Under the pieces are notes generated by a model. That model saw only the letters and a program-made list of their open reading frames with translations, did not search any database and was not told the origin of the DNA. Shown here in pieces: positions 24,840 through 28,817 of a DNA stretch of 64,000 nucleotides (its first letter is position 1; each line of letters starts with the position of its first letter). The position numbers and the translations under genes are program-made. The stretch is taken from the NCBI GenBank assembly GCA_021234155.1, contig JAJEKV010000002.1, forward strand, positions 39,793,841-39,857,840, given 5' to 3'. The DNA comes from Isoetes taiwanensis. Its lineage: Eukaryota > Streptophyta > Lycopodiopsida > Isoetales > Isoetaceae.

Positions 24840-26195
24840 GCCATCGCTAATCTCCCCGACGCTTTGGGGGATGGCGGTCGAAGAGGTCAAGTGCCATTGC
24901 CCCTCTTGACTAAGACAAAGATAGTCGACATTTGTCGCTATTCGAGCATGCCCGCCGGGAGCCCGAGTGCAATCAGCATAAACACTCCTTCTTCACTGAC
25001 TGAACTTGCGGAATTACCGCTTATTCTCCCATCCATCAGCCAGCAGGTAGTACCGAGCGAACTGCCGCTGTGTGTCGCCAAGCTTCCCCGCTTGTTTGGC
25101 CTCCTACTGGGTGTCGCCTCGGCCAGAGCTCCGCCGAATTCCCAACTTCAAGTGAGCTCCCCTCGTAGTCTTCACCCAGGCAAGGTCGAGCCTCCTCGAG
25201 GTCGATTCCTCTCCTTTGGCAGGGTGATATCGGCGATTCCCGCATTAGGGATGCTCGTGGTCTTCCCACCCATCCCCATCTCCCTGCTTCTGGAGGGCGA
25301 GGAACTCCTCCCTTCTGCTGGCAGCCCCGCCCCCATCAATTGCCCGATGTCGCCAGGGGCTCGATATCTGAGGTCGCCTCCCCTCGTGGGGTGTCGGACT
25401 CCTCACTTGAAGCGGGAAGTTCTGAGGGGTTCCCCTGACGATGAAGTCGCCCATGTCTGCCTCCGCCGCAGCTGGTGGAGCAGTCTCGTTCAACCTGAGC
25501 CCCTCTCCCCGCATTCGGGAGGTTCGATGTCGCTGAGGAGTAGATACCTCTCCGCCGATGATGATAGGGGCTAGGCTTGTGATGCCTAGCCCGGTGGGGG
25601 AGCAACTCGATGCCCCCGCTCGCTCTCGGGAAATTGATCAGGCCTCGCCTCCTTGGCGCCGCTTCTTCGTCCGAAGTCGAAGCCTGTATCCTTCGTCAGT
25701 CCGGACTTTCTTCATCCTCTCTTGCTTCCTCGTTCTTGTTGATACCGCAAGAAAGCATTTGCTCGCCCTCCCTCCTCAGCCTATGGGGTCTACCTTCACC
25801 TGAGGGATAGAGGTTGCCCCCATCTGCTCCCTACAAGGGGGATAAGAAGATGGCTAGGGCGGCGGTAAGAGAAGTACTTGGTCCCGCTATCGTCGTGACC
25901 ATGTAATCGTAGTCTCAAGGCCTTTGTTAGTCAGGGCATTTGGCGATGTTGGGGACATCGCCAAGGCTACTTGAAGGGATGGGCTGGGAACGGCAGTATC
26001 CTATGCAAGGGGGACTTGAACAAGGGAGGGTCCTACCCTAGCTTGAAATTCTCGCTAGCACCCGGCCATAAGTCGGGTTGCATTTAGCGTAGCTTGATGT
26101 CAATTTCTTTTCACAAAGACTTGAAGATGTCGCTGACATCCGCCTCAAGAGATGGGCACCGGCGCCGCACCATCGCCCAAATCAGCAGTAGCCAT
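24840..26195 (-). other. Accessory region Y of the truncated internal region
   Basis: A GC-rich stretch between primer site and gag. On the minus strand it begins with an ATG at about 26,195 and opens with a small-residue-rich M-A-T-A-D-L start. It lies about 110 bp downstream of a TATAAATA-type box. I recognise no domain. Composition is rich in Arg, Ser, Pro and Gly. The plus strand also has long frames (for example 24,864-25,574), so the coding strand rests on the promoter arrangement. Copy in the complete element: about 36,480-37,849. Fossil, broken as read. Confidence 0.45.
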
Positions 26196-26303
26196 TGATC
26201 TAGCAAGGAAGGGAGTATCAAACCGATGCGTAATTGGGAGCCGAAAGATCGCCTAGCAAAGGGGGAGCAAATTTGCAGGTGGTACCAATTGAGAAATGGG
26301 GAA

Positions 26304-26314
26304 CTTATTTATAG
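26304..26314 (-). promoter_or_regulatory. TATA box of accessory cassette Y
   Basis: CTATAAATAAG on the minus strand, about 110 bp upstream of the ATG of region Y. Two palindromic boxes lie about 200 and 400 bp further upstream. It is kept at 37,963-37,973 in the other copy. Confidence 0.55.
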
Positions 26315-26504
26315 AAAAGGGAAAACCCTAATTTTGGATGACTTAGAATTTACTCGAGATTAGGCAATTCTAACCTATTAAGTGATGCAATTGCAAGTTT
26401 GAAGTATATTTCTAGGGTTTGAGCATGCTAAGGAGAGCTACCGAACCTATTGTGCAATTTGGAGATCATTTAGTGAAGAAATGGTATTTGGTTCATTGAC
26501 GCTA

Positions 26505-26756
26505 TGCCAGCCATTTCTAAAATGTAGAAATCGTGTCCTCGGCGCGGTGAGACATGGGTCCCAATTGGGCTAGGATTACTCAATTTAGGTGATCTAAGGT
26601 CAATTCCACTAAACTCATCGAAGTTAGGCGTAATTGACCCCTTTACTTGGTCGATTTGGAGCTGTTTTGGGCATTTTATATGGTTCACACGCTCGCTTTT
26701 ACCGCATTTCTAGAATGTAGAAATCATTCCCTCGGCGACGCGGTGAGACATCGCCT
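26505..26756 (-). promoter_or_regulatory. Two palindromic boxes upstream of cassette Y
   Basis: Two copies of a roughly 45-bp box, at about 26,513-26,557 and 26,701-26,752. Each has the core TTTCTAGAATGTAGAAA (6-bp arms around 5 bp; the first copy has one change) followed by a CG-rich GGCGCCGACG-like stretch and GTGAGACA. The head-to-head TTCnnGAA part resembles a heat-shock element. Matching pair in the other copy: about 38,175-38,225 and 38,368-38,418. Confidence 0.6.
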
Positions 26757-26949
26757 CAATTTTGCTCAAAACTCCAATTTAATTAAAACAAAAGCTAGGG
26801 ATCGATATCTTGACCTATTTAAACAAGGTTTGACACTTTATTTACACAAAATTTTCTTTATATTAACAAAATTTTTTTCCAGTTATTTACAAAACTCAAG
26901 GTCGCTTCACCCTTGATGTGTGCCTCGCAAGATACATATCCCCGCCATG

Positions 26950-28215
26950 AGGGTAACCCTCTTCGCAATCGCAAGTGTGCCGCTGAATCTTCAAAATGTT
27001 TCACTAAGTGGGCTTCGGCCGCTTTTGCAAACACAAAGAATATCTCGCCTGCCACGCTGCGATGTCCAGGTTGTATTCTTGAATGACTTCACACTGTGAC
27101 GCCGGAACGGGCGCCGGGAATCAGGAGTCCGTAGCTCTTCTCCTCGAAGTGGCGGATCTCCTGAGTGCCCCGCCTTCCTCCCCGCTTTCTTGTTCCGCTT
27201 CCCCGGTGCTCGTGGGGGCTTTGGGGCTTTGGTGGAGGGGGCTTTTAGTGTCCTGCTCTTCGCCGGTGCCCTCGGCTTCAATCGCTTCTCACCCGTGCTC
27301 CTGGTAATAGGTGTTGTAGGCCTCCCACTTCGGCCATATATGCAGGTGCTCTCATTTCCTCTTCCTCTCGATAGACCTTTAAGGGGTCTATCACATAGGC
27401 TTCCCAAGGCGTCATGGGGTCTTGACTCTATCCCACGCCGGGAATGGTGGGGCTTCCACCGCCTCCGCCTCCTCCCGCTTCTTGGCCGCCTCGCTGGTAC
27501 CTCTCCTCCTCTCCAACCGGGGCTTTGAAGAGCTTTTGCCCTGCTCAAGGCCCAAGACGTAGTCTTGGTCCTGGACTGCCGGTAGTGGGCGGGTCTCCCT
27601 CCTCCCGGCTCAAGGATGACAAGGTTCTCTCGCCTCTTCCCAACCTTTGACCACCTTCCTCTTGCCTGCCTTTGATGGCCTTGGCCCTCCTCTTCTTGAT
27701 CCGGCCGGCTGCCTTTCCCCGATCCTCCTTTGATCTCTCGCCCCCTACGGCGCTTCTTGACTTCGCTTGTGTGACCTTGCTGCTAGGGTCGGCCTCTTCC
27801 TCCCGGGTGAGTTGTGGCGGTTGTCGCCTCCTCTCCCACCGCCCCTCCTCGCAGTGTGGATCTCAGCCCCGGGTTGTTCTGGCCTATTGGTGGGTTCACC
27901 TGCTCTCCTCGCTCCCTCCGTGGGTTGGCGGCCCCCCTCGTAAGCTGCTCCCGCGCCGGGCCGCCTTCCCCGCCTCCCTGCCGCCTAAATTTCATTGAGG
28001 ATCTCGCCATGACGCCCGCCGGGCCGCCCTCCAAGATCTCAGGTGGTCGCCCCTCGTCCGGACTGATCGACTCGCCGACTTAAGATCCGCCGACGCGGGA
28101 GAAGGCGCCTCCCGGAATCCCGTGGGCAAGGCTCGGAAAGCCGGGCGGCGCCGGAGGATCCGGGCTCGCCAGGCTTCCTTTGCACCGCTTCGCGGCGGGC
28201 TATCATTTTACTTGG
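26950..28215 (-). other. Accessory region X of the truncated internal region
   Basis: A GC-rich stretch nearest the primer site. On the minus strand it encodes a strongly basic, Gly/Pro/Arg/Lys-rich protein with K-P-P-x-P-K-type tracts and a less biased C-terminal part. No known domain is recognised. The copy in the complete element (about 38,590-39,826) has a 248-residue frame starting at 39,826. It begins about 100 bp downstream of a TATA box, the same spacing as region Y. Fossil, broken as read; function unknown. Confidence 0.45.
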
Positions 28216-28304
28216 GCTCGTCGATTGGAGCTACGCCACTAAGATCGCCTTTGACAATACGAAATTTAAGTTCTCGAAGGACGGGAAAAATGGGAGGGGT
28301 CCAG

Positions 28305-28315
28305 CCTATTTATAG
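28305..28315 (-). promoter_or_regulatory. TATA box of accessory cassette X
   Basis: CTATAAATAGG on the minus strand, about 100 bp upstream of the start of region X. Palindromic boxes lie about 100 and 290 bp upstream. The other copy has it at 39,928-39,938. Confidence 0.55.
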
Positions 28316-28399
28316 GGCCAATTTTAGGTCAACTTTAAACTACCTTTTGGGTTGTCTAAGGCATCTAAAAACACCTAATTATAGGTTCATCGCTATGCT

Positions 28400-28635
28400 T
28401 ACCGATTCCTAGAATCTAGAAACCCGCCTCGGCGCTGACGTGGAGACATGGTGGGGCCCACTATTAAATTAACATGTAACATGCTAAATCTACTAATTCT
28501 TAGCTTAAATTTAGAATTATCAAGATATTTTACCAGAATTTACAACTTTTTTTTGGTGTCAGCCGAATGTTCAAGACGTTGTTTCCCATTTCTAGAATGT
28601 AGAAATCATTCCGGCGCCGACGGTGAGACCACCCT
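28400..28635 (-). promoter_or_regulatory. Two palindromic boxes upstream of cassette X
   Basis: Third and fourth copies of the box, at about 28,404-28,452 (variant core TCCTAGAATCTAGAAA) and 28,589-28,630 (core TTTCTAGAATGTAGAAA), each followed by the CG-rich stretch and GAGAC. Matching pair: about 40,023-40,075 and 40,216-40,256. Confidence 0.6.
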
Positions 28636-28817
28636 ACTTTTTGATGTTGGCTCATCAATTTTAGTCTTTTACGCTTTCTATTCTTTTTAACTGTTACTAG
28701 CTTAGTATAAACTACAAAAATGAGAAAAAATTTCTCATTTTTCGAGGTTCGAGGATCCTATCAAGTTAGTGCTATCGGAACATGGCCGCTGCTTTGCTCT
28801 TGGTCTCCAAGAACATA

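Follow-up and report, generated by a model that had tools for sequence, protein, structure and literature searches.

Chromatin is a main route of retroelement silencing in plants. Orchid Ty3/gypsy elements are described as carrying an AlkB demethylase of N6-methyladenosine (m6A), which was proposed to counter host surveillance; the same work screened 121 genomes and reported 15 extra domains, and its section 12, which names only some of these, does not mention histone (PMC9289625). Fungal hAT DNA transposons are reported to have captured H3; such copies are inactivated by repeat-induced point mutation (RIP), while those of Pyrenophora tritici-repentis are described as recent and putatively active (PMC6710886). 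In Arabidopsis, VANDAL elements are described with an anti-silencing protein, VANC, and repeated short motifs in their own element, which vary between relatives (PMC5735166). Gene23 of Grande is described as an accessory gene of a plant long terminal repeat (LTR) element with its own promoter and a nuclear protein (PMC7264820). Here we analysed a window of 64,000 nucleotides from Isoetes taiwanensis (contig JAJEKV010000002.1, positions 39,793,841 to 39,857,840), together with genome-wide searches of the same genome (1.66 Gb). The window holds two copies of a Ty3/gypsy LTR element with two additional genes, X and Y, between the primer-binding site (PBS) and gag, and X is almost certainly a protein with the histone H3 fold.

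The Isoetes element resembles the orchid elements in being of the Ty3/gypsy type, in a plant host, and in having an additional open reading frame (ORF) that looks like a captured gene. The orchid elements carry a 2-oxoglutarate-dependent dioxygenase (2-ODD) RNA demethylase, whereas the Isoetes element has a histone H3 and a partner, Y, each behind promoter-like sequence. With the fungal hAT elements it shares H3 coding sequence at high copy number inside a transposable element. Those are DNA transposons with H3 or part of it, whereas here an LTR retrotransposon, which is no hAT element because it has Ty3-type pol, carries a remodelled H3 kept under selection and a second gene. With VANDAL/VANC it has in common an element-encoded protein and repeated motifs in the element's own sequence. 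VANDALs are Mutator-like DNA transposons, and VANC is not known to be a histone. Grande has one antisense gene between pol and the 3′ LTR, whereas the Isoetes element has two sense genes between PBS and gag. The word ‘histone’ does not occur in the text of PMC7264820 (extra ORFs) or of PMC13317346 (gene capture review). No retroelement-encoded histone was named among the papers listed in the literature searches, most subscription papers and preprints being outside their reach. H3 capture by fungal hAT transposons is already known; an H3 apparently belonging to a retroelement was not found in that literature.

X Encodes a Histone H3 Fold

The initial annotation had suggested that X and Y possibly encode basic nucleic-acid-binding proteins and proposed to search them separately against protein profiles. 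The open X of copy L019 has 428 aa, and its residues 313–424 matched the Pfam Histone family with an E value of 7e-27 and 94.5 bits (cut-off 26.4). It also matched H3 chains of the PDB (E 5e-29), and over 89 fold residues it was 56–60% identical to host H3. In the whole-X protein search, H3 proteins led among the best 120 of 1834 matches, and the five inspected were tandem copies of canonical H3. The suggestion held in spirit for X, and it missed that X is a histone H3.

X starts with MMARTKQTARKP, which equals the start of the H3 tail apart from an extra Met and a P in place of S10. ARTKQTARK is kept, including K4 and K9; no further H3 tail follows, and the part with K27 and K36 is not kept. 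Behind the tail start lies an insert of about 300 residues, and the complete H3 fold occupies the C-terminal end. For a nucleosomal histone, such an insertion separating the two parts is unusual. Residues 14–325, the non-histone part, gave no match among 5216 candidates of a protein search. A stretch before the fold (residues 241–312, beginning FPTWDRVKAPRPQREAYVIDP) was conserved in L029–L037 and had no Pfam match, and a predicted long helix at residues 269–299 was the best-scored part of the structural model of X.

Ten X loci were retrieved, and L038 was left out on account of a stop. The nine remaining full-length open ORFs have 418–440 aa, and all share identical first 12 residues, with MMARTKQTARKP in 9/9. 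Among 13804 first-look candidates, 98 X loci were scored, and 43 of these spanned about residues 2–419 or more without a stop (hand count). Judged by these sequences, a conserved H3 lies inside the LTR element.

Y Is a Conserved Partner Gene

The open Y of L019 has 507 aa. Profile searches returned no Pfam or NCBIfam match for it and no convincing PDB match (E 0.14 or worse). Its sole database match was an unnamed protein on a short contig (P0001), 47% identical over 99%, and Y was not found in the viral or prokaryote contigs searched. Out of 15451 first-look candidates, 85 Y loci were scored, 42 of which spanned residues 1–507 without a stop (hand count). Many copies have kept open X and Y frames, and neither gene matched a nested unrelated transposon.

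Selection on X and Y

The ratio of nonsynonymous to synonymous substitution (dN/dS) was estimated from copy pairs. X gave 0.158 overall (36 pairs of nine open copies, mean dS 0.47), the copies being the best matches to L019 and not a random draw, which biases dN low, and dS being possibly raised by methylation or sequence errors. By part, the tail (13 codons) had a ratio of 0.020, residues 14–240 one of 0.25, residues 241–312 one of 0.108 and the fold one of 0.060. Transversions in the X fold were 0.025, 0.007 and 0.082 for the first, second and third codon positions. For Y, 12 loci were retrieved and two with stops were left out; dN/dS was 0.104 over 45 pairs of the 10 open copies (mean dS 0.36) and 0.054 in alignment columns 1–130. 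An earlier range for Y of 0.10–0.40, calculated on partial frames that may include stretches past frame breaks, is superseded by the 0.104 value. The difference between fold and insert and the transversion-only counts speak against sampling and dS bias as the sole source of these low ratios. Judged by these copies, all of them among those most similar to L019, X and Y are both under purifying selection.

These values also bear on the idea that X and Y are passenger genes, that is, host gene fragments carried without function, as captured genes often are. Frames are broken in many copies, including both copies of the window, and the captured H3 in Pseudocercospora fijiensis hAT elements is reported to be inactivated (PMC6710886). 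The idea is nevertheless very improbable, given the low dN/dS of both genes at mean dS of 0.47 and 0.36, the stop-free spans in 43/98 scored X loci and 42/85 scored Y loci, and a second lineage, described below, which has retained both genes at the single locus inspected.

X–Y Linkage and a Second Lineage

X was followed by Y on one strand in 32/32 loci, and gag came after them in 31. Twenty of these loci were picked by the region between the genes and 12 by Y; the sample was thus directed at elements with X–Y sequence. X and Y probably form one functional module.

With canonical H3 as the query, 150 loci were scored, comprising 15 host-like H3 loci (97–99%) and then 135 loci at 72–87%. The host H3 sequences of this genome resemble H3 of land plants. 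Two of the 135 were inspected (L068 and L069). Both encode a protein of about 410 aa, with an H3 fold 85–88% identical to host H3 and a different N-terminal part, which had no match to X at E 0.01 and does not start with ARTKQTARK; AATAAA lies 48–50 bp past the stop. The L068 protein matched Pfam Histone at E 1e-41. Downstream of it lies a distant Y (tblastn 5e-8, 25%; hhalign E 8e-10, 28%), followed by TATAAATA and then by an ORF in the gag position without a Pfam match. From this one locus, the combination of H3 and Y appears to be present in the second lineage too, and we infer that this lineage is a retroelement. L068, L069 and L070 (G000:C1018 and C1034) belong to a repetitive family with a TGACGTCA palindrome after the H3-fold gene.

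The second lineage is also relevant to an alternative in which X is not deposited in chromatin, its ARTKQTARK terminus instead soaking up or inhibiting the enzymes and readers of H3K4 and H3K9, with Y as a separate regulator. We regard such a decoy as rather unlikely. The tail is indeed the most constrained part of X (dN/dS 0.020 over 13 codons, MMARTKQTARKP in 9/9) and the remaining H3 tail is not kept, but a decoy has no need of a histone fold, and that fold shows a dN/dS of 0.060. In addition, the two second-lineage proteins keep the H3 fold without an ARTKQTARK start, and the double Met of X could block a true H3 terminus.

Origin of X

Over the 89 fold residues, identity of X to host H3 was 56–60%, as against 49–56% to the presumed sequences of two CENH3s (Arabidopsis and maize). 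X does not have the longer loop 1 and shows a two-residue gap relative to both of these. In a small tree with long branches, X joined the two CENH3s (support 0.925). On these comparisons X may have come from either H3 or CENH3.

It is quite unlikely that X is a captured CENH3 with a role in bringing the element to centromeres or keeping it there. Besides the grouping in the tree (0.925), X shares ALKEIRHFQK, LLIP and VTLMR with Arabidopsis CENH3 and LIP.APF with maize CENH3, in the presumed sequences of both. Set against this are the missing two-residue insertion in loop 1, a resemblance to host H3 (56–60%) at least as close as that to CENH3 (49–56%), the long branches of the tree and the nearness of the second lineage to canonical H3 (85–88%).

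Promoter-like Cassettes

Each cassette comprises palindromic boxes, a TATA box, about 100–120 bp, an ATG and a GC-rich gene (X, then Y). The palindrome core was defined as TTTCTA, five bases and TAGAAA with at most two mismatches, and the scan covered 22 copies (both window copies plus L009–L028). The scan found 82 cores against 4.15 expected from mononucleotide shuffles; the boxes are not due to chance. Exactly two X cores and two Y cores were present in 16/22 copies. The X pair was missing in L014 and L025, one X core was missing in L017, L021 and L027, and L016 had one extra core.

The TATA box TATAAATA was observed upstream of Y in 20/20 genome loci and upstream of X in 19/20, L014 having no X promoter. 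Within the 60–200 nt scanned below the TATA box, the ATG stood at 117–126 nt for Y and 97–110 nt for X. A third TATAAATA lay ahead of gag in 18/20 loci. All ten open-Y copies showed TATAAATA at −122 with the arms of two boxes upstream, and the nine open-X loci showed TATAAA at −105 to −107. AATAAA was found about 50 bp past the X stop in 5/9 intact loci, and 19/20 of L009–L028 had one in the interval from X to Y. In L019, the single copy examined downstream of Y, the first 330 bases contained none.

At the open-X loci each box forms a 67-bp inverted repeat whose outer arms read GTCTCACACGTCGCGCC and GGCGCAACGTGTGAGAC, and most TATA boxes have two such repeats upstream. A strict scan returned 31 of them in the nine loci, where four per locus would make 36. 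Sixteen of the 17 outer-arm positions were complementary in 28–31 of the 31 boxes and the remaining position in 1/31, while the inner arms vary between subfamilies and are complementary only in part. The exact half-box occurred 1829 times genome-wide, and its reversed control 0 times. None of six host H3 loci showed the box arm.

These features support the view that the X and Y cassettes each stand behind promoter-like sequence. The initial annotation had proposed promoters for both, and the boxes, the TATA boxes and the AATAAA after X are consistent with that proposal. The boxes and TATA motifs that it described are real; it did not recognise that the boxes are part of 67-bp inverted repeats in intact relatives, or that a third TATAAATA precedes gag.

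Some half-box pairs lay about 800–1000 bp apart and not about 190 or 1650 (e.g., G000:C57, C68, C334, C294 and C419), as if these were derivatives with part of X deleted. Upstream of X in L030, one box is altered mainly in its CG-rich arm and has an intact AT-rich core; X is open there. Heat-shock elements and histone-gene hexamers (ACGTCA) were considered as identities for the boxes and set aside: ACGTCA occurred in 0/13 listed stretches of open-X loci, two of which are not real boxes. A single box of window copy 1 and a single box of L012 do contain the hexamer.

The Carrier Element

The domains of the carrier were identified on L019 and L039, which are the same copy. Gag (PF03732) was found on L019, and RVP_2, RVT_1, RT_RNaseH, Integrase_H2C2 and rve on pieces of L039, giving gag, protease, reverse transcriptase (RT), RNase H and integrase in Ty3/gypsy chromovirus order. 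A Chromo domain (PF00385) was detected at the integrase C-terminus of L039 with an E value of 2.1e-10. By these domains the carrier is a high-copy Ty3/gypsy chromovirus, and the Chromo domain of this related copy bears out the earlier classification. The chromodomain reads EIVPE and WKHL at what we take to be the cage-aromatic positions of HP1; on these positions it would be without two of the three cage aromatics. Group II chromodomains are said to lack cage aromatics (PMC12786077, a review of host factors), and the chromodomain of the element resembles this group.

Another conceivable use of X is as an integration or packaging factor that coats cDNA or marks target chromatin for the integrase chromodomain, with Y aiding assembly. 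This is unlikely, since EIVPE and WKHL replace the cage aromatics at the presumed HP1 positions, in a group II-like manner, and promoter-like cassettes of their own would be odd for a structural particle protein. In its favour, a Chromo domain (E 2e-10) marks the element as a chromovirus, and chromodomains are reported to direct chromovirus integration (PMC12786077, PMC9289625).

Element Copies in the Window

Two copies of the element (19707–30525 and 31363–42139) lie in direct orientation on the minus strand and are 88% identical in the alignment, which ends at 30525/42139. All features below are on this strand. The order, determined by eye, is an LTR of about 1.7 kb, the adjoining PBS, cassette X, cassette Y, gag and pol. 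The insert of about 4 kb between PBS and gag is present in both copies, and the two like-built cassettes proposed there were confirmed. The copies appear to stand in tandem, head to tail, with the middle LTR common to both.

The LTR of copy 1 (28830–30525, inner end approximate) was recognised by eye from its TG...CA ends and adjoining PBS, together with the alignment end. A polypurine tract (PPT)-like AAGGTGGGGAGAA stands before it (30527–30539, by eye). The PBS, TGGTATCGAGC (28818–28828, by eye), resembles what we take to be the PBS for initiator tRNA-Met. The core scan placed the two X box cores at 28589–28605 and 28406–28422, and TATAAATA of X was located by eye and by scan at 28307–28314. 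X itself, histone H3-like and frameshifted, starts at 28206 and covers 26906–28206 (E 7e-25 in tblastn, the query being the open L019 X). The Y box cores follow at 26707–26723 and 26514–26530 (core scan), with TATAAATA of Y at 26306–26313 (scan). Y is frameshifted, starts at 26195 and covers 24682–26195 (E 8e-35 in tblastn, the query being the open L019 Y). The third TATAAATA lies before gag at 24623–24630 (scan). Gag-pol, with broken frames, extends over 19760–24388 (low end approximate); gag was matched by tblastn at 24388–23704, and the pol domains are those of the related copy L039.

In copy 2, the LTR occupies 40463–42139 (by eye and alignment end; inner end approximate). The core scan located its two X boxes, from 40232 and 40048, within 40032–40232, and its two Y boxes, from 38389 and 38194, within 38178–38389. 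X is frameshifted (38563–39826; tblastn E 3e-30, residue 26 onward) and is open from 39826 to 39080. Y is also frameshifted (36333–37849), with tblastn matches of E 2e-66 and 1e-38 within 37805–36333 and a start at 37849 by eye; TATAAATA of Y lies at 37965–37972 (scan). Gag-pol has broken frames and covers 31363–36042 (low end approximate; gag tblastn 36042–35354). The layout claimed for this copy holds for the boxes, the order and the Y TATA box at 37972, while the X TATA box (39929–39936, by eye) reads TATAAATG and not TATAAATA.

Small indels are dense between the two copies and break the X and Y frames in both. The GC-rich frames of the initial annotation are in this way genes conserved across copies of the element, whose frames in the window itself are broken. 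A Pfam search of 10/26 long ORFs of the window region, on both strands, gave only two matches, both below the cut-offs; this near-empty result is due to the broken reading frames. Mismatch between the copies is patchy, and its density rises in GC-rich stretches and close to CG and CHG sites. The broken frames could equally result from systematic base-calling or assembly errors or from true decay. On either side of the element copies lies a repeat of about 20 kb (1–19700 and 44093–63725), which contains repeats spaced at 6.3 kb. Between its own two copies, differences are again more frequent close to CG and CHG sites, and identical runs reach 536 bp.

Proposed Role of X and Y

As an explanation of the whole, we tentatively favour X and Y as a self-directed chromatin module against silencing, and we hold this as a possibility somewhat short of an even chance. 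In this proposal, X would pair with host H4 and take the place of host H3 in nucleosomes. Y would be a dedicated partner of X, either a DNA-guided chaperone or a targeting protein, that recognises the long inverted repeats ahead of each cassette, from whose boxes transcription presumably starts. The promoter region of the element would then be packaged in nucleosomes of a non-standard kind, on which host silencing acts poorly; this would be tied to K4 and K9 being kept, S10 being changed to P and the K27/K36 part of the tail not being kept. The outcome would be an element that stays transcribable. This particular mechanism is a little more doubtful than the general proposal. We give the same guarded standing to a wider formulation, a private chromatin system in which the element's own H3 variant is loaded by its partner at the element's inverted repeats, evading or redirecting host silencing, and in which H3 and Y are an old mobile epigenetic cassette of at least two element lineages. 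The element may build or imitate host silencing packaging.

Several observations weigh against a chromatin module, in addition to the choice of copies in the selection analysis. With the first ATG of ATGATGGC as the start, the N-terminus of X would be MMARTK, which is not a true H3 terminus; the second ATG, also in ATGATGGC, is in what we take to be the better context. Because of this double Met, true mimicry of the tail should be viewed with caution. Two cage aromatics are apparently missing from the integrase chromodomain, which may for this reason not read the K9 tail. No fold or family was found for Y that would indicate a chaperone or DNA binding. The AlphaFold models, built on shallow alignments, were of low confidence, with a predicted local distance difference test (pLDDT) score of 49 for X and 38 for Y. 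Lastly, the boxes are imperfect, as one outer-arm position is mismatched in 30/31 and inner pairs 26–28 are A–A in 6/31.

An H3 encoded by the element, with silencing-modified tail residues and a conserved partner, would turn the resistance of LTR elements to chromatin silencing into a concrete biochemical test.

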